From positions 1,338,077 to 1,402,076 of the forward strand of contig NZ_CM001436.1 in assembly GCF_000243255.1 (NCBI RefSeq): a stretch of 64,000 bases of DNA, given 5' to 3'. The notes beneath the pieces are model-generated. The model searched no databases and was not told the DNA's origin. It saw only the letters and a list, made by a program, of their open reading frames with translations. This DNA comes from Methanoplanus limicola DSM 2279. GTDB lineage: Archaea; Halobacteriota; Methanomicrobia; Methanomicrobiales; Methanomicrobiaceae. The position numbers were made by a program, and so were the translations under genes. Shown here in pieces: positions 25,322 through 33,605 of this stretch (positions are counted from its first letter, which is position 1; each line of letters begins with the position of its first letter).

Positions 25322-26140
25322 TTATCTTCTGATTTCTTCTGAGAGATCTTTTAGGCCCCGGTAGTATATATCTGCAATATTTTTTATGAAGATCGCAATT
25401 TTGGGGTTTATTAGAATGATTGTATATCCGACTGCGATGAGGGTCAGGAGGGAAAGTCCGAATTCAGATATGATATTATGCGCCCAGAAGTAACTTTCAT
25501 AACCGAACTGTCCGTTTGATGCGATCTCGGGCAGGAAAGGAAACCACTGTTTGGTATATGAAATTATTACAAAGACATTTCTTATGAGATTCATCAGAAT
25601 GATAAGGGCAACAACAGCCACAACTGAGATTAACTTCTGCTTAATTCCGGATTTGGCAGTAAAAACCGCGCCCGTCATAATAGCTATCGCCTGAATGCCT
25701 GTGCATCCCAGCACAATTTCGACTCTGAATATGTCATGCATAAACATATTCCATTCCGGCAGGCTATAGGTGAATCCGAGAGCTGTGAAAACAGTTTCAG
25801 TCATCTTTACATTGAGGAGTATGAGGGTATCTCCAAGAACGGGTATATAGGCAAAGGGTGCGAAGATGAGGTAAGCTATTGCTGCACCCCTTGTGAGCAT
25901 TATTATATTTTCATTCTCTGCGAGGCATTTTTTTACTGTAATTAAAAGTACAGGAAGGGACAGGAATGCCACTATGGGATATGCGATATTATTCTCTGAA
26001 AAATATTCCGGGAAGTTTGCAAATACTGAGGCAACCAGAAATATCCATCCTGCGGAGGCAAATATTTTTTTGTACTTCCCCGGAAAGAGAAATAGAAGAA
26101 AACCTGCAAATGAAATTGATGCAAGCAAGGTCTGAATCAT
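25322..26140 (-). CDS. artA: Archaeosortase A
   Basis: Integral-membrane transpeptidase of the exosortase/archaeosortase family that processes C-terminal sorting signals (PGF-CTERM type) and attaches surface proteins to a membrane lipid. The 272 residues have about 7-8 hydrophobic helices and the complete catalytic set: Cys146 in LGCTGIQ, Arg187 in NLIRNVF and His221 in FWAHNIISE. No PGF-CTERM substrate is encoded in the window. It stands alone, divergent from the sensor kinase at 26295. It probably matters for the same cell surface that the glycan island decorates. Confidence 0.9.
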   Translation of the reverse strand: MIQTLLASISFAGFLLFLFPGKYKKIFASAGWIFLVASVFANFPEYFSENNIAYPIVAFLSLPVLLITVKKCLAENENIIMLTRGAAIAYLIFAPFAYIPVLGDTLILLNVKMTETVFTALGFTYSLPEWNMFMHDIFRVEIVLGCTGIQAIAIMTGAVFTAKSGIKQKLISVVAVVALIILMNLIRNVFVIISYTKQWFPFLPEIASNGQFGYESYFWAHNIISEFGLSLLTLIAVGYTIILINPKIAIFIKNIADIYYRGLKDLSEEIRR

Positions 26141-26294
26141 CTGTCTGTTTTAGTTTGATTTGTGATGCAATAATATTTGCCTGAAATGATCCGGAAATAT
26201 TACAGAATATAACATTTTTGGTGCACTAACGCATATCAGAAAGAATAACAATTAAGTATATTGGAGGATTATAATATCATAATCAGGTGTAATT

Positions 26295-27473
26295 ATGTCA
26301 AGACAAATTGAAGAGAGTAAGCGGGAACTTTCAAGAGTTATGGAACTCCTGAAGGATGAGCCGAGAGGACTTTCAATAACAGATATTTCAAGACTGCTGA
26401 ATATGAACCGGAATTCGGTCTCAAAATATCTTAATATGCTTCTCATATCCGGAAAAGTTGATATGAGGAGTATTGGCGTTGCAAAAGTATATTTTCTCTC
26501 TCACAGGGTTCCAATCTCTGCGATGCTTGATTATTCCTCCGATGCGATTGTTGTTCTGGATGAGAAGCAGAAGGTTGTCCAGGCCAATGATAATTTCATA
26601 TCTTTTACCGGATACAACAGGAATGAACTGATAGGTCTGAGAATTCCTGACTCCTCCCTTCCTGTAGTTACAAATCCGACTGTCCTTAAAACAATAAATG
26701 ACCTTCTCAGGGGAGAAGGCGAAGCAAAAGAGATAGAGTGGGAAGATGAGTCCGGGGATTTTTTCTACCTTGTAAAACTAATACCGACAGTTTTTGATGA
26801 GGGTAATCCGGGAGTTACGATCATTCTTGAGGATGTAACTGAGATCAGAAAGGCGCTGCGTGAGAAGGAGCTCCTGATTGATGAGATACATCTAAGGGTC
26901 AGGAATAACCTCCAGGTGATCTCCAGCCTTCTTAATATGCAGTCACAGGGCATTGAGGATGAACAGTCAAAGGAGGCATTATCGGAGGCGCAGATGAGGC
27001 TATCAGCCCTGGCGCTCGTTCATGAAAACCTTCATTATTCATCAGATCAGCAGCATATCAATGTAGCTGAGTATGTAAAAAGCCTTGCAGAGGATATATC
27101 ATCCGGAATTAACACTGACTGTTCAGGAATTGATGTTGAGATAAGTGCCGATATGGACCTTGGGATTGATCTCTCCATACCGTTTGGGATGATGGTCAAT
27201 GAACTTCTGACAAACTCTTTCAGGCATGCCTTTCCGGATAAGAAAAGCGGCAGAATAACAGTCACGCTTAAGAAGGCTGCACCATCAGTTTATACATTGA
27301 CTTTTGAAGATAACGGAACAGGTTTCCCGGAAGATTTCGACAGGAAGAATATTACATCTCTTGGTCTGTCTCTGGTTAAAAATATTGCAGAGAGGCAGCT
27401 TTCAGGGTCAATGGATATCATCACCGGAAAAGGAACCAGAATAATAATTAATTTCGCAGAGGAGAATAACTGA
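26295..27473 (+). CDS. Sensor histidine kinase A (HTH-PAS-HisKA_2-HATPase), altered H-box
   Basis: A soluble 392-residue kinase. A winged-helix-like domain (about 10-70, ITDISRLLNMNRNSVSKYLNML) is followed by a PAS domain (about 75-190), a HisKA_2-type dimerisation helix (about 195-265) and an HATPase domain (about 285-390). ATP-binding motifs look intact: NELLTN (N302, N307) and DNGTGF (339-344). The H-box reads EIHLRVRNN where the family has E-x-H-H-R-V-K-N-N, so the His directly before Arg is Leu200; His199 remains. The next gene, 9 bp downstream, is its likely response regulator. A second kinase lies convergent at 28175. Confidence 0.88.
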   Translation: MSRQIEESKRELSRVMELLKDEPRGLSITDISRLLNMNRNSVSKYLNMLLISGKVDMRSIGVAKVYFLSHRVPISAMLDYSSDAIVVLDEKQKVVQANDNFISFTGYNRNELIGLRIPDSSLPVVTNPTVLKTINDLLRGEGEAKEIEWEDESGDFFYLVKLIPTVFDEGNPGVTIILEDVTEIRKALREKELLIDEIHLRVRNNLQVISSLLNMQSQGIEDEQSKEALSEAQMRLSALALVHENLHYSSDQQHINVAEYVKSLAEDISSGINTDCSGIDVEISADMDLGIDLSIPFGMMVNELLTNSFRHAFPDKKSGRITVTLKKAAPSVYTLTFEDNGTGFPEDFDRKNITSLGLSLVKNIAERQLSGSMDIITGKGTRIIINFAEENN

Positions 27474-27482
27474 GGGGCAATT

Positions 27483-27863
27483 ATGAAGGAATTCTCGATT
27501 TTGATTGTTGAGGACGATGCTATAATATCAATGGATATAGAGCAGAGAGTTCAGAAGCTTGGCCATAAGGTTGTCGGGGTGGTTGATCGTGCAGAGAAGG
27601 CTTTTCGTGCAATAATTGAAAAAAAGCCGGATCTCATTCTGATGGATATCAATCTCAAGGGCGGGATGGACGGAATATCCATTGCCGACAGGCTGTACAA
27701 GGATATGGGTACAAGGGTAATATATATTACAGCATATTCTGATGAGGGTATGAAGGAAAGGGCCGATAAGACGAATCCTTTGGGTTATATTGTCAAACCA
27801 ATCCGTGAAAATGAACTTAACAGGGTTCTGGCAGCCGCGGAATCTGAACTGTCGGAAAGTTAG
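27483..27863 (+). CDS. Single-domain response regulator (CheY-like receiver)
   Basis: A 126-residue receiver domain with acidic pocket D11/D12, phosphoacceptor Asp55 in LILMDINL, the switch Thr83 in YITAYS and Lys105 in GYIVKPI. There is no output domain, so it acts through a protein partner or as a phosphorelay intermediate. It is 9 bp after sensor kinase A with a GAGGGGCAATT SD, clearly one operon. The five FliM-like CheY-binding peptides in the HEAT protein at 1425 are a possible, speculative kind of target for such a stand-alone receiver. Confidence 0.92.
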   Translation: MKEFSILIVEDDAIISMDIEQRVQKLGHKVVGVVDRAEKAFRAIIEKKPDLILMDINLKGGMDGISIADRLYKDMGTRVIYITAYSDEGMKERADKTNPLGYIVKPIRENELNRVLAAAESELSES

Positions 27864-28114
27864 CAGATATATAATCGGTGTGGATTTATCCGGAATTTAT
27901 CCATGATCTGGCGTTTACTCTGCGTTGTGTGCCATAAATAAAATACATTAAATGCTTATCTTTCATAAGCTTAAATCAGGTTTAAAAAAAAGTCATTTAA
28001 GACTTTTTGTATGTAATGGAGGTGTAATGGTTTTTCCTGATTTCTGCACCGGAACTTTTCCGGTGTTATACTACATAATTGGTTTGAGCCTATATATAAG
28101 ATGGAAATGCCCTG

Positions 28115-28156
28115 AATCATATGGTATAACCGGATGGTTATCCATATGATTTTTTC
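28115..28156. terminator. Long hairpin between convergent two-component genes
   Basis: The arms AATCATATGGTATAACC and GGTTATCCATATGATT pair over 16 bp with one bulge, followed by TTTTTT. The hairpin lies between the response regulator and the convergent kinase B, and can serve both. The rest of the 27864-28174 gap holds only a weak 65-codon frame that I do not believe. Confidence 0.7.
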
Positions 28157-28174
28157 ACATGCAGTTGCCGTATT

Positions 28175-29575
28175 CTAACTGACAGGAAATTTCATTTTAA
28201 TCATGTAATTCTGTTCATCTCCGTTTACAGGTTCTATGCTGAATTCACCTTCAAGCTGTGCAGTAATTATATTTTTTACAAGTTCAATGCCAAGGGATCT
28301 CTCCGACTTCCCGGAGATGATCTCCTGAATTTCACTCTCTTCCGGGCAGCTGCCGCTGTCACTATATATTATTTCGGCAAAATTCCGGTCACATATAACT
28401 GATATTGTTATCCGGCCTTTCTCTGTACTTTTAAATGATTTTTTTGCTGAATATATAAGCAGTTCATTTATGGCAATACTGAGCGGTAATCCTGTTTCAA
28501 CCGTAAATGTACATTTTTCAGCATTTATCAGGTGTTCAATATTTTTTTCCGGAGCATAATTCTGAATTGTCTGCCGGAATAATTTTTCAAAGTGCGGACC
28601 GGCTTCAATGCGGGAGTAATTGTCAGATTCATATACACTCTCGTGTACCATGGCCATTGAAAATATTCTGCTCTCTGCCTCTTTCAGTGCAGATGCTGAT
28701 TCGTTCTCCTCCTCTTCTGAAATTTGCATTCTAAGAAGGCTTTTGATGATCTGTAGATTGTTCTTTACCCTGTGGTGCATCTCTGAGAGCATAAGATTCT
28801 TTTCTTTCAGGGAATTCTGCATTAATGAGAGCATATTTTTTGAATCTGTAATATCAATCAGGAGCAGAATTATCTGGTCCATGAAAAATGAAGGGAGCAT
28901 AATGAGGTGGAAATACCTGTTTAGGGATTCTATGTAGATATCAGTCTCAGAACTTGTCTTCCATCTTCTGACAATTCTTAATCTTTCAGGGCAGAGTCTG
29001 CATATTTCAGGTATGCTTCTGCATATATCCTCTTCAATATCTCTGTCAGAACCTGGTTTTTGCCGCATAAAAGTTTCTTTAAAAATTCCATTGGTTTTTA
29101 TTACTCTAAAACCGGGTTCTTCTTTATTTTCATCGATTATCGCAACCGGAAATTTAACGCTCTCAAAAATATCGTTAAATATCCTCTTCATCTTTGATAA
29201 GCCAACTCCGGAGTTGTAAAGTGGTGTAATATCGGATATTGTATGGAGTAATATTTCATTTTTTGGGCCGGCTGTGCTCTTACTGATTTCGTAGGCCCTC
29301 TTATCCAGTATGATATATTCGCTGTTTCCGGATTTTTCCGGAATAAAATCTTCAATATTTATTTCTCCTTTATTTCCGGTTTTATTTCTGCTGAATAACT
29401 CAGTAATATTTTCCCCGCAGAGGTAGCTGTTTTCATCACCAAAAGTTTTTAAAGCCTCTTTGTTTGCCCAGATGATGGTGCCCCCTTTATCAGTTGCAAT
29501 CAGGGAGAAGGTAATACTGTCCAGTATTTCAGAGCAGTATTTTACAGAAAAATTGTCATTGTTTATTTTTGTCAT
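28175..29575 (-). CDS. Sensor histidine kinase B (PAS-HisKA_2), degenerate ATPase domain
   Basis: A soluble 466-residue protein with a PAS-like domain at about 15-120, a second sensory domain at about 130-245, a HisKA_2 helix with the full EMHHRVKNNLQ motif (His267-His268), and a C-terminal HATPase-like domain. The latter is degenerate. The N-box is NELLIYSAKKS, with Tyr375 where the Mg-binding Asn is expected. The G1 box reads DSGSC (406-410) in place of DNGxG. LGIELVKNI is retained. It probably cannot bind ATP normally but keeps an accepting His, the reverse of kinase A. It is convergent with the kinase A/response regulator operon. Confidence 0.87.
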   Translation of the reverse strand: MTKINNDNFSVKYCSEILDSITFSLIATDKGGTIIWANKEALKTFGDENSYLCGENITELFSRNKTGNKGEINIEDFIPEKSGNSEYIILDKRAYEISKSTAGPKNEILLHTISDITPLYNSGVGLSKMKRIFNDIFESVKFPVAIIDENKEEPGFRVIKTNGIFKETFMRQKPGSDRDIEEDICRSIPEICRLCPERLRIVRRWKTSSETDIYIESLNRYFHLIMLPSFFMDQIILLLIDITDSKNMLSLMQNSLKEKNLMLSEMHHRVKNNLQIIKSLLRMQISEEEENESASALKEAESRIFSMAMVHESVYESDNYSRIEAGPHFEKLFRQTIQNYAPEKNIEHLINAEKCTFTVETGLPLSIAINELLIYSAKKSFKSTEKGRITISVICDRNFAEIIYSDSGSCPEESEIQEIISGKSERSLGIELVKNIITAQLEGEFSIEPVNGDEQNYMIKMKFPVS

Positions 29576-29956: not shown

Positions 29957-30340
29957 CTATATGGATGTTTCTGATATTTTAAGAGTGGATAGTTTATCCA
30001 TAAATATCTCGCCTTTTTCTGTCAGTCTGTAAATTATCCAGGTGCCTTCTGCTTCACCTCTGATAAGCCCTGAGTTCTGAAGTATTTTAAGGTGGTATGA
30101 AAGTTTTGAATCCGGAATTTCAAGTGCCTGTTTGATGATGCAGACGCATAATTTATGAATATTCAACATTTCAAGAATTGTCATTCTGATTGGGTCTGAT
30201 GCTGCTGAAAAAAGCCCGCTCATCTCCAGTATCTCATCTTTTTCGGGTATTGCATCTATAAGACCTTTTATCCCGCCGCAATCACACAGGTTTTTTTCAA
30301 TACTGCATGGAAGGTTTTTGTCAAGTCCAAAGTTGTCCAA
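29957..30340 (-). CDS. ArsR/SmtB-family metal-sensing repressor
   Basis: A winged-helix repressor of 127 residues. The core is MSGLFSAASDPIRMTILEML, then HKLCVCII (Cys65, Cys67, the ELCVC-type metal/metalloid site on the alpha-3 helix), the recognition helix SKLSYHLKILQNSGLI and the wing GTWIIYRL. Three additional Cys (12, 19, 21) in an N-terminal extension may complete a thiolate site. Its position just downstream of, and in the same orientation as, an iron-type ABC importer suggests metal-dependent control of that cluster or of itself. The metal cannot be deduced. Confidence 0.9.
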   Translation of the reverse strand: MDNFGLDKNLPCSIEKNLCDCGGIKGLIDAIPEKDEILEMSGLFSAASDPIRMTILEMLNIHKLCVCIIKQALEIPDSKLSYHLKILQNSGLIRGEAEGTWIIYRLTEKGEIFMDKLSTLKISETSI

Positions 30341-30491
30341 CTTATATCACCCTTAAGGACAGAAAATTAATTCCGGAGTCCTATACAGTTTTTAGAACTG
30401 TTTATATTTAACAGGATTTCTTATGACTTTCTTCGCTGATTATGTTCCCTGAAAAATAGTTCTTAATGGACAGATATTCTGCGGATTTTTT

Positions 30492-30576
30492 TCTATATTG
30501 TGTGGTAAAATAAATGCCTGACAGATATCCTGAGGATTTTATCTATATTGTGTGGTAAAATAAATGCCTGACAGAT
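30492..30576. repeat. Two 35-bp direct repeats, 50-bp period
   Basis: TCTATATTGTGTGGTAAAAT and the following AAATGCCTGACAGAT occur at 30492-30526 and again at 30542-30576, identical over 35 bp. They lie between the ABC ATPase stop and the ArsR gene, so they are in the ArsR promoter region on the minus strand. They could be regulator sites or a simple duplication. Confidence 0.85.
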
Positions 30577-30598
30577 GAGGCAGGCTGTGAAGGTCTTT

Positions 30599-31357
30599 TC
30601 AGTCAGCTATCGGAACTACAACAGATCCGCCTGTAACACTCTCAACTGCCACACTGACGCCATATACAGCCCTGATGTTTTCAGGATTGATGATCTCTGA
30701 TCCTCCGGCGGCAAATACCCTGTTGTCTTTCAGCATGAGAAAGCGGTCTGAGAACCTCAGGGCGGTGTTTATATCATGCAGGGTCATGACTGCTGAGACA
30801 TTATGCCCCTTTACAACCTCACATATTATTTTAAGGATCTCCTGTTGGTTTCTGAGATCAAGGCTGCTTGTCGGTTCATCGAGAAGCAGAAGTTTTGGTT
30901 CCTGTACTATAGAGCGGGCAATTGATATCTTCTGGAGTTCTCCGCCGCTCATCTGGTCGATGTAACGCATTGCAAGGTCCTCCATCTTCAGTCTTTTTAT
31001 CACGGCATCGACAATCCTGATGTCTTTTTCAGATGTGCTCCAGACAATGTGAGGCCTTCTTCCGAGAAGAATGGCATCATATGCTGTCAGCCGTCCTTTT
31101 TCGCAATGCTGGGGGACATATCCCACCTTTTTTGCAACTTCCGGCAGGCTGAGTTTCATGATGTCCTGATCTTCAACCATGATAGAGCCTGCCCTCGGAT
31201 TGTGTATCCTGTTTATACACTTCAGGAGGGTTGTTTTGCCTACACCGTTTGGCCCGAGAATTGTGAGGATTTCATTGGGCCTGACTGAGAATGAGATCTC
31301 ATTTAAGACTTCCCTGCTTTTGTAGTTAAATTCAACTCCGTTAATATCAAGAATCAA
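30599..31357 (-). CDS. ABC transporter ATP-binding protein, iron-complex/B12 type (FecE-like)
   Basis: The ATPase of a BtuCDF/FecBCDE-type importer. From TTG 31357 it has 252 residues, with Walker A GPNGVGKTT, Q-loop YVPQH, signature MSGGELQ, Walker B LLLLDEPTSSLD and the His switch TLHDI. The open frame runs to 31495, but that extension lies inside the permease gene and is non-family. The TTG shares four bases with the permease stop (TTGA) and follows an AGGGGG SD, so it is translationally coupled. Probable cargo is a siderophore-like iron complex or a corrinoid. Confidence 0.93.
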   Translation of the reverse strand: MILDINGVEFNYKSREVLNEISFSVRPNEILTILGPNGVGKTTLLKCINRIHNPRAGSIMVEDQDIMKLSLPEVAKKVGYVPQHCEKGRLTAYDAILLGRRPHIVWSTSEKDIRIVDAVIKRLKMEDLAMRYIDQMSGGELQKISIARSIVQEPKLLLLDEPTSSLDLRNQQEILKIICEVVKGHNVSAVMTLHDINTALRFSDRFLMLKDNRVFAAGGSEIINPENIRAVYGVSVAVESVTGGSVVVPIAD

Positions 31358-32424
31358 TTTGCATGCCCCCTTATAAGCAGATAGATGAATACCGGTGCTC
31401 CCATGAATGCCGTGAGGATCGCAACCGGAAGTATGTGCGGTGCAAGAATAAGCCTTGCTGCTGTATCGGATGCCAGCAGGAGTATTGCTCCGCATACGAG
31501 AGTTCCCGGAATAAGGAATCTGTGATCGTCTCCGATAATTCTCCTTGTGATATGCGGGCAGACGAGTCCGACAAATCCGATAACTCCGAGGAATGATACG
31601 ATTACGGCTGAGAGGAAGGACGATATGACCATTCCAACGAGTCTTAGCCTCTCAACATTTACTCCAAGGCCTTTTGCAGTCTCGTCTCCGGCATCAATTG
31701 CATTGTAATTCCACATATTCATGATGAAGTAAGCTGAGCAGATTATTGTCAGAATACCCATAAATATGAGTTCACTCCAGTCTGCCCTGCCGACATCACC
31801 GAATGTCCAGAATACGACTGCCGCGAGCTGCACGTCATCTGCAAAGTACTGAAGAAACATCGTCCCGGCAGTGAAGAGAGATCCTATAGCGACACCGGCA
31901 AGGACCATTACTTCGGGTGAAGCACCACGGATTTTAGAGATTAAGAGTATAATTCCGGTTGCGATCATTGCAAAGATGAATGCAACTATGGTTGTGATGT
32001 ACGGGTTGTTTAAGACTACGGCGTTCACTCCGGAACTCTGCATAGTTCCGGTACCAAGAATTATTACAGAGAATGCGGCGCCAAATGCTGCTGCATGGGA
32101 TATTCCGAGTGTGAACGGGGAGCCGAGTGGATTTCTGAGTATGGACTGCATTGCAACACCCGCAACCGCAAGTCCTGCTCCGGCGACGATTCCGGCAAGC
32201 GCTTGGGGCAGTCTTATGTTCCAGATTATTGTCTGCCACTTTGATGATGACGTTACCCCGAGAAGTGTTTCAAGTACATCAAAGGGCGGTATTCCGACTG
32301 CACCGACTGATATTGAATATATGAGTAGTATAAAGAGCAGAACTATTCCTGCAATTATAATTGATATTTTCCTGCCTGTGTATTTTTTGTATTCTTCCGG
32401 AATTTCTCCGCCGTTAAGATGCAT
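31354..32424 (-). CDS. FecCD/BtuC-family ABC permease
   Basis: A 356-residue membrane component with about 10 hydrophobic helices and family signatures RLPQALAGIVAGAGLAVAG, AGVAMQSILRNPLGSP and GFVGLVCPHITRRIIGDDHR (the coupling-helix region contacting the ATPase). It is presumably a homodimer. It is 41 bp downstream of the binding protein and overlaps the ATPase start by four bases, so the three genes form one operon (binding protein, permease, ATPase). Confidence 0.95.
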   Translation of the reverse strand: MHLNGGEIPEEYKKYTGRKISIIIAGIVLLFILLIYSISVGAVGIPPFDVLETLLGVTSSSKWQTIIWNIRLPQALAGIVAGAGLAVAGVAMQSILRNPLGSPFTLGISHAAAFGAAFSVIILGTGTMQSSGVNAVVLNNPYITTIVAFIFAMIATGIILLISKIRGASPEVMVLAGVAIGSLFTAGTMFLQYFADDVQLAAVVFWTFGDVGRADWSELIFMGILTIICSAYFIMNMWNYNAIDAGDETAKGLGVNVERLRLVGMVISSFLSAVIVSFLGVIGFVGLVCPHITRRIIGDDHRFLIPGTLVCGAILLLASDTAARLILAPHILPVAILTAFMGAPVFIYLLIRGHAN

Positions 32425-32465
32425 AATCTGTCCTGAACTGTAAAGGTGGTTTTTTTACCGGAAAA

Positions 32466-33605
32466 TTACTTCATTTCCAGTTTTTTAAAGACTTTATTGT
32501 CAAATTCACTTTTCATCTGATCAAATACCGGTTCTCCTATGAGATAGGTATAGATTTCATCTGCTTTTGTCACGGGATCAATGTCGCTGAATTTATCCGG
32601 GTAAAGAATTTTTCCTGTAAAATAAGCATCAGCAATTTCACTTCCATGGTTTATGGAATACCAGTTGTATGGTAAGACACCGTATACTTCTCCGGATTTG
32701 ACCGCATTTAGTTGTTGATATGATGGATCTTCCTTTAATTCAGTTATTGCATTTGGATCAGTCTGAAGAGTTGAGAGGTCAACAAATATAATTTCAGGAT
32801 CCCATTCAATTATCTTCTCCTTTGCAACATCAGCATGTTCTGTACCCATACCTTCTGCAACATTGAGTGCATTTATGAATGCAAACGGTGGATAGGTTGG
32901 TTCGGTTGACTGGAATCCGTGTGGACCGTGATAGGCTATTCCACCAACGTAGGTTGTCTTTTTCTCTTCGTCAGGAATATTTTCAGTTCTCTTCTGAAGG
33001 TCTCCTGTCATCTCATCAAAGAATGTTATAACATCTTCTGCTCTTTCATCCTGCCCCATAACTTTTCCCATGATTCTCAGGGTTTTATCCATGTCTTCCC
33101 TGTAAACTCCGAGTGTTCCATAGTTGAGGGCTACGACAGGTACTCCTGTCTTTGTTGAAAGTTCATCTGCATCACCTGCGGAGGTTAAAAAGGTCTTAAA
33201 GATGACCTGCGGGTCTGCGGCAACTATCTTTTCAGGATCGTCATTGCCTCTGAATTCCCCTATTAACGGATATTCCTTAAACTGTGGGTTTGCAAGTGAG
33301 TATGGTCTTGCATCAAACATTGTTTCCTTTATCTCAATGTCATCCACACCGACAATTTTATCCTGCGCCTGAAGGTATGTCAGATATCTTAAGCATCCCG
33401 GTCCTGAGCAGACAACCCTTTCAGGGTTTTTTGGAACAGTTACTTCTCTTCCAAGAGAGTCTGTAACTTTAATGGTCTCAGTTACTGATGTTTCATCTGT
33501 ATTTTGTGTATTTACTGAAGCATTTCCGGTGCATCCGCATGTAAATGCCAGTATTAATCCTGCAAGAATTATCAGGACTGTAGCCGGTTTTAAAATTTTT
33601 TTCAT
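32466..33605 (-). CDS. Iron-complex-type ABC substrate-binding lipoprotein
   Basis: A 379-residue extracytoplasmic binding protein. An N-terminal signal with a lipobox-like end (CGCTGN, likely lipid-bearing Cys25) and a short Thr/Ser linker precede the FecB/BtuF fold beginning TIKVTDSLGREVTVPKNPERVV. The motif SGPGCLRYLTYL and the paired helices with ADPQVIF and WDPEIIFVD are typical of class III binding proteins. As first gene of the operon it delivers ligand to the permease at 31354. The ligand (ferric chelate, haem or corrinoid) cannot be settled from sequence. Confidence 0.9.
   Translation of the reverse strand: MKKILKPATVLIILAGLILAFTCGCTGNASVNTQNTDETSVTETIKVTDSLGREVTVPKNPERVVCSGPGCLRYLTYLQAQDKIVGVDDIEIKETMFDARPYSLANPQFKEYPLIGEFRGNDDPEKIVAADPQVIFKTFLTSAGDADELSTKTGVPVVALNYGTLGVYREDMDKTLRIMGKVMGQDERAEDVITFFDEMTGDLQKRTENIPDEEKKTTYVGGIAYHGPHGFQSTEPTYPPFAFINALNVAEGMGTEHADVAKEKIIEWDPEIIFVDLSTLQTDPNAITELKEDPSYQQLNAVKSGEVYGVLPYNWYSINHGSEIADAYFTGKILYPDKFSDIDPVTKADEIYTYLIGEPVFDQMKSEFDNKVFKKLEMK

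Follow-up and report, generated by a model that had tools for sequence, protein, structure and literature searches.

The window analysed here, 64,000 nucleotides of Methanoplanus limicola DSM 2279 (contig NZ_CM001436.1, positions 1,338,077 to 1,402,076), encodes two histidine kinase-like proteins, A and B, on either side of a stand-alone receiver (Table 1). Kinase A joins a winged helix-turn-helix (HTH) and a PAS domain to a kinase core that has lost its phosphoacceptor histidine. We propose, at a probability of about 45%, that A is a DNA-binding regulator and not a working kinase, whose dead core docks the neighbouring receiver and reads its phosphorylated form, as DivL does with DivK. The proposal builds on the acceptor loss, the intact receiver, the domain make-up of A, the linkage of these genes across relatives and a conserved upstream site, from which we infer DNA binding by A, docking of the receiver and autoregulation of the locus, including its archaeosortase A gene.

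Pfam assigned to A an HTH_IclR, a PAS, a HisKA_2 (79 bits, cut-off 22.3) and a HATPase_c domain (46.5 bits), and both boxes of the ATP site, N (NELLTN) and G1 (DNGTG), were intact. The H-box reads E197-I-H-L200-R-V-R-N-N, with leucine at the place, immediately before the arginine, of the phosphoacceptor histidine. A sequence-only reading of this DNA had described the same replacement and the same intact ATP site, correctly on both counts, and had named the identity of the true acceptor as its chief doubt. An alignment answers this doubt: in a profile of 13 A sequences, Leu200 aligned with the sole box histidine of the kinase EL346 (EVQHRVKNH) and of the Brucella LOV kinase (EIAHRFKNS), the residue on which, we presume, both are phosphorylated. 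A literature search for EL346 with H142 found no paper, so the assignment rests on alignment, and a study of PdtaS mutated both histidines at once and thus cannot tell them apart (PMC8131098). As far as alignment allows, the acceptor position of A is therefore settled as Leu200. In 28 genomes of the window's family, 118 sites fitted an H-box pattern with a free acceptor codon (the pattern itself required histidine at the position of A His199), 104 with histidine and 14 without; all 14 of the latter were A orthologues, indicating that acceptor loss is a property of the A family and not noise. Four further A genes of this family (G013, G003, G009 and G015) fell outside the pattern.

We searched for A in 60 relatives and then in 232 genomes of the order (E at most 1e-80), and found it in 39 of the 232. 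Two of these proteins (in G022 and G024) consist of the HTH-PAS part alone, and the other 37 carry the kinase core. The acceptor position was occupied by Gln (16 cores), Leu (9), Tyr (6), Met (3), Ile (1), Phe (1) or His (1), so that 36/37 cores were non-His while the remainder of the box was largely kept. Six different replacements in a kept box suggest that "not His" is what selection favours, and they fit selection for losing phosphotransfer. A thus belongs to an old family in which acceptor loss is general. In four Methanocalculus-type genomes (L092, L090, L091 and L175) and in G136 (L168), A was without both the acceptor and the ATP boxes, in loci where the receiver and a further kinase, C, were intact. 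Two of the families that we labelled, f3 and f4, are presumably Methanofollis and Methanoculleus.

The receiver adjoined A in all 37 loci (on the same strand in 29, converging in 8), and its acidic pair, aspartate, threonine and lysine were kept in every one. Kinase C, a HisKA_2 kinase with a His-His pair, occurred within the fetched region in 31/37 A loci; 30 of these have it divergent from A, and in G136 it lies downstream. All 31 full-length C copies examined (30 beside A, plus that of G025, counted although its contig ends before A) had the N-box asparagine and the G1 box; the C of G027 is split, as is A there. The A-C linkage was retained where the surrounding genes change. C and A are separated by archaeosortase A-like genes in G002, G008, G013 and G019, and in a second family by genes for a chemoreceptor (MCPsignal) and a CheW-like protein (L086 4001-6676 and similar loci). 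No C was found beside A in G000 (the window genome) and G001 (the sister species of the same genus), both of which have B downstream instead, nor in G003, G009, G015 or G045. Three genomes of a single genus have retained the receiver and an A with intact ATP boxes in the absence of any C or B nearby. For the two core-less A proteins, of G022 and G024, the region held no C and the genome no close stand-alone receiver, a result weakened by contigs that end 560-580 bases past A. The winged HTH of A, the age of its family and the usual presence of an intact neighbour kinase had all been overlooked in the sequence-only reading.

In a quick tree the C copies formed a cluster, which took in neither any of the seven HisKA_2 genes of G000 nor the ones retrieved from G001 and G003. 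This tree is to be read with its limits: the careful search was unfinished, four Methanocalculus-type A rows were nested among the C copies by a long branch, and C and A each need two label changes. It included 31/37 A cores, left out kinases whose H-box lay outside the script's expression, duplicates and sequences under 150 amino acids (aa), and had no own row for L060, L062, L063, L176 or L182.

Selection was estimated between G000 and its sister species as the ratio of nonsynonymous to synonymous substitution rates (dN/dS; Nei-Gojobori method, own script). The ratio for A was 0.060 overall, with no stops; the HTH was its most constrained part (0.011), followed by PAS (0.021), the dimerisation and histidine phosphotransfer (DHp) region (0.035) and the ATPase, the least constrained (0.146). 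B gave 0.167 overall (DHp 0.041, ATPase 0.172), and four canonical kinases compared between the same two species gave 0.037-0.090 for DHp and 0.061-0.140 for the ATPase. Both A and B are maintained, and the DHp of A, though acceptor-less, is under constraint as tight as that on a working one.

Upstream regions were extracted for 34 genomes (G000 included; G037, G042, G057, G066 and G136 left out). In 21 of these, the motif GC[AC]TATCA (a one-base variant in G129) was present 5' of A: 15 belong to the window's family, with the motif at -62 to -69, and 6 to the second family, with the motif at -150 or -151. In the second family the site forms half of a palindrome, TGCCTATCA-N4-TGATAGGCA, which occurred in one place per genome in six whole genomes, always 130-155 base pairs (bp) 5' of A (up to 2 mismatches allowed; 0 for a backwards control). 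In the window's family, G000 and G001 aside, a stricter pattern was searched in 12 genomes and matched the A promoter in 11 of them (control 0), the exception being G010; it had no match in G000 and G001, which carry a variant, and G017 stood outside this genome-wide search. Two extra matches, 5' of a receiver-PAS protein in G019 and next to what looks like a pilin gene in G016 (by eye), were not repeated elsewhere. A candidate site private to the locus is well supported in two families, and the HTH of A suggests that A may be the protein that binds it.

An AlphaFold2 model of A (mean predicted local distance difference test score, pLDDT, 79.3; predicted template modelling score 0.56) contained a long DHp helix at residues 182-217 and was of low confidence at the HTH, with block means of 58-77 for residues 1-50 and under 50 at 56-80. 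Compared with solved structures, the model matched the kinase core of EL346 first (4r39_C, Z 18.6, root-mean-square deviation (rmsd) 3.5 over 177 residues), and it matched DivL (4q20_B) with Z 15.1 and rmsd 4.8 over 152 residues; this match list says little on the HTH and PAS parts.

In the mechanism that we propose, the winged HTH of A would bind the site 5' of its own gene, while the PAS domain and kinase core would dimerise and the acceptor-less core would serve as a docking platform for the neighbouring receiver. Intact kinase C would phosphorylate the receiver in most relatives; in the window genus, where C is gone, the donor would be another kinase, possibly acting through B. Information would then run from kinase C (or another) to the receiver, to A and to DNA, and a receiver without an output domain would thereby gain a transcriptional output. 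The loss of the acceptor would let A bind the phosphorylated receiver without draining or donating phosphate: by the precedent of DivL, a DHp without histidine can still dock a receiver, but neither takes nor gives phosphate. DivL carries tyrosine in place of the histidine, binds phosphorylated DivK and is described as lacking kinase and phosphatase activity, and the authors of that study suggest that its kinase fold has been repurposed to sense a phosphorylated receiver (PMC4211667). About 40% of archaeal response regulators are stand-alone receivers, according to a census of two-component systems in archaea, which could infer no function for most of them (PMC5847659); a conserved set of intact kinase, output-less receiver and dead-core DNA binder would offer a testable route from such receivers to transcription. 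If true, this would extend the DivL principle to archaea, joined to a DNA-binding output.

Several observations weigh against this proposal. The A of G101 has histidine at the acceptor site (L171, AIHHRLRNTLQ), where its relatives have tyrosine, possibly by reversion. In G002 (L083) and G027 (L093) the A reading frame is broken into two that overlap. Most lineages have retained the ATP boxes of A, which is more than docking strictly requires and is not accounted for by docking alone; the boxes could instead reflect a conformational change that depends on nucleotide, or a phosphatase role. At three loci, short relatives of the HTH-PAS type that carry a DHp-like helix lacked an adjacent receiver; coupling to a receiver is therefore not a general trait of HTH-PAS proteins. 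The upstream site was absent in 13 of the 34 genomes (G003, G009, G015, G022, G024 and 8 of a third family), of which G003, G009 and G015 have A and the receiver all the same. A k-mer test on six representatives alone was only modest, one of 200 shuffles scoring as high, so that the weight falls on the genome-wide uniqueness of the site. By eye, the site also lies just 5' of a TATA-like sequence, and it could serve another factor or be a promoter element.

The kept ATP boxes bear directly on an unlikely alternative, that A is a dedicated phosphatase of the receiver, set by the PAS signal and by nucleotide, with C or another kinase phosphorylating. Histidine kinases mutated at the acceptor histidine can retain phosphatase activity, and Asn204, four places past the acceptor position, is kept in most A members together with the ATP boxes. 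Kinase-like archaeal proteins have, moreover, been proposed as receiver phosphatases (PMC5847659). However, position 204 is serine in three genomes, and a phosphatase role does not account for the HTH or for the conserved site 5' of A.

The sequence-only reading had instead paired A with B, as a heterodimer or a trans-phosphorylating pair that feeds the receiver. Taken as a split kinase of the window genus that replaces C, a scheme which we judge to be rather improbable, the two proteins would divide the work: His268 of B would receive its phosphate from the ATPase of A, within a heterodimer or in trans, and B would hand it on to the receiver. The description of B itself held up, as did the positions of the three open reading frames. 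Pfam assigned a PAS and a HisKA_2 domain (83.8 bits) to B, and its HATPase_c stayed below threshold (16.3 bits versus a cut-off of 26.4). The H-box, E-M-H-H268-R-V-K-N-N, has the acceptor histidine in both species of the genus, and the ATP site has the N box NELLIY, with Tyr375 for the asparagine, and the G1 box DSGSC; the sister-species B shares these defects (NELLIY, DSGSR). The complementary losses are thus real, maintained and common to both genomes of the genus, the DHp ratio of B (0.041) falls in the canonical range, and C was not seen in the genomes of the window genus. There is also a precedent, in that CheA3 and CheA4 of Rhodobacter sphaeroides phosphorylate only together (PMC3591291).

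Pairing of A with B is not a general feature of the A family, however. A B orthologue was found in 2/60 genomes, both of the window genus (81% identity between the two copies), and the best match in another genus reached 43% identity over the kinase core alone, so the co-occurrence of A and B that was to be expected across relatives was confined to these two; the A core occurs in 37 loci, in 36 without its acceptor, and 31 of the 37 have a neighbouring C, which where complete is intact and has no need of a helper. B is therefore young, having arisen later than the acceptor loss of A; since that loss predates B, transfer from A to B cannot be its reason. The ATPase is also the least constrained domain of A. 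A and B share 13/21 residues in DHp helix 1 and 11/32 in helix 2 (gapless count), no more than other pairs, and this likeness gave no signal that B uses the receiver of A. Dimers of the kinase fold usually form between like DHp domains, which counts against a mixed one. Two other readings of B were rejected: a decaying pseudogene, by its dN/dS of 0.167 and lack of stops, and a relocated kinase C, by the quick tree, which placed B with Methanogenium-type kinases (L044, L045, L052, L053 and L057) in a join flagged as one of long branches. More doubtful again is a composite in which the kinase core is the input domain of an archaeal HTH protein, the phosphorylated receiver, by docking on that dead core, switches the DNA-bound HTH at one operator private to the locus, and in the window genus the ATPase of A was re-recruited after C was lost, with the ATPase-dead B as its substrate, so as to restore a split kinase.

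Linkage in 31/37 loci, even amid changing neighbours, and ATP boxes kept in most A proteins would also suit an action of A on C, either by phosphorylating it or by tuning it in A-C heterodimers, as DivL is thought to tune CckA. We regard this as very unlikely. C is complete by itself, and A persists in six genomes with no C nearby. In the four Methanocalculus-type genomes and G136, moreover, the ATP site of A has decayed beside an intact C. Because C is intact wherever it is complete and the ATP site of A has decayed in some lineages, the conserved function of A is not to provide catalysis to another protein. Autophosphorylation of A on the neighbouring His199 is scarcely credible: this residue is kept in 36/37 cores (asparagine in G136), but the equivalent position is glutamine or alanine in EL346 and the Brucella LOV kinase, and all 104 canonical boxes have histidine there too, as the pattern required, so its conservation is no pointer to phosphorylation.

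Table 1. Features of the kinase A locus, in window coordinates
Feature	Position	Strand	Description
Kinase A	26295..27473	+	392 aa; winged HTH - PAS - HisKA_2 - HATPase; Leu200 in place of the acceptor His
Winged HTH region of A, aa 1-73	26295..26513	+	Pfam HTH_IclR 27.4 bits, cut-off 22
Leu200 codon of A at the phosphoacceptor position	26892..26894	+	Sequence; alignment to EL346
N box NELLTN (302-307) to G1 box DNGTG (339-343) of A	27198..27323	+	Intact; sequence
Stand-alone receiver (REC only)	27483..27863	+	126 aa; Pfam Response_reg 74.8 bits; Asp55 site, acidic pair, Thr, Lys
Kinase B, genus-specific	28175..29575	-	466 aa; PAS - HisKA_2 - degenerate HATPase
Phosphoacceptor His268 codon of B	28772..28774	-	Sequence
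Tyr375 codon of B at the Mg-binding Asn position of the N box	28451..28453	-	Sequence
Degenerate G1 box of B, D406-S-G-S-C410	28346..28360	-	DSGSR in sister species; sequence and pairwise alignment
Archaeosortase A gene, divergent to A	25322..26140	-	NCBIfam TIGR04125 exosort_PGF_TRM 204.5 bits, cut-off 75
Candidate operator half-site GCATATCA	26231..26238	+	64 bp 5' of A start codon; conserved GC[AC]TATCA at -62 to -69

Through the archaeosortase A gene, the signalling locus could possibly connect to surface-protein processing. In G002, G008, G013 and G019 a second archaeosortase A-like gene lies between archaeosortase A and kinase C (e.g., L069 6056-7910). Beyond B, at 29957-33605, we noted an ArsR-like gene and an ABC transporter of the iron or cobalamin type (names by eye), and in the sister species a transposase-like open frame lies, by eye, between B and the ArsR-like gene. 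Other neighbour genes are those that we take to be PurA and PdxS.

The N-terminal HTH-PAS module of A (about residues 10-195) is shared with archaeal HTH-PAS regulators, of which these genomes encode many; unlike A, those that we examined end in further PAS domains or in a short HisKA-like helix pair without HATPase. Short proteins of the latter kind (282-294 aa; L219 312-1196, L220 303-1172 and 1427-2275) carry the helix pair (IRNPLQ) at a sub-cut-off score and apparently no acceptor histidine. The census of archaeal two-component systems reports that receiver and HTH genes are often adjacent, giving their interaction as undemonstrated, and records the reverse case of a kept histidine with a missing ATPase (PMC5847659).

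Among established systems, the HisKA_2 and HWE kinases (EL346, LOV-HK, PdtaS) share the HisKA_2 and HATPase domains of A, which differs from them in having no acceptor histidine, as B differs in lacking the ATP-site asparagine and the G1 glycine. DivL is a bacterial protein of the HisKA and not the HisKA_2 type, without an HTH. Like A, DivL of Caulobacter combines PAS with a DHp and catalytic domain fold, has its acceptor histidine replaced and works with a stand-alone receiver (PMC4211667); A differs in being archaeal and in having a DNA-binding domain, and its binding of the receiver is proposed by analogy. CheA3 and CheA4 resemble A and B in that one protein is without the acceptor and the other without catalysis (PMC3591291), but they miss whole domains, whereas A and B have lost single residues and their pairing is confined to one genus. 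Acceptor-less kinase folds such as DivL and split kinases such as CheA3/CheA4 are thus already known, and a conserved archaeal HisKA_2 family that is both HTH-fused and acceptor-less is, so far as literature searches show, a new variant.

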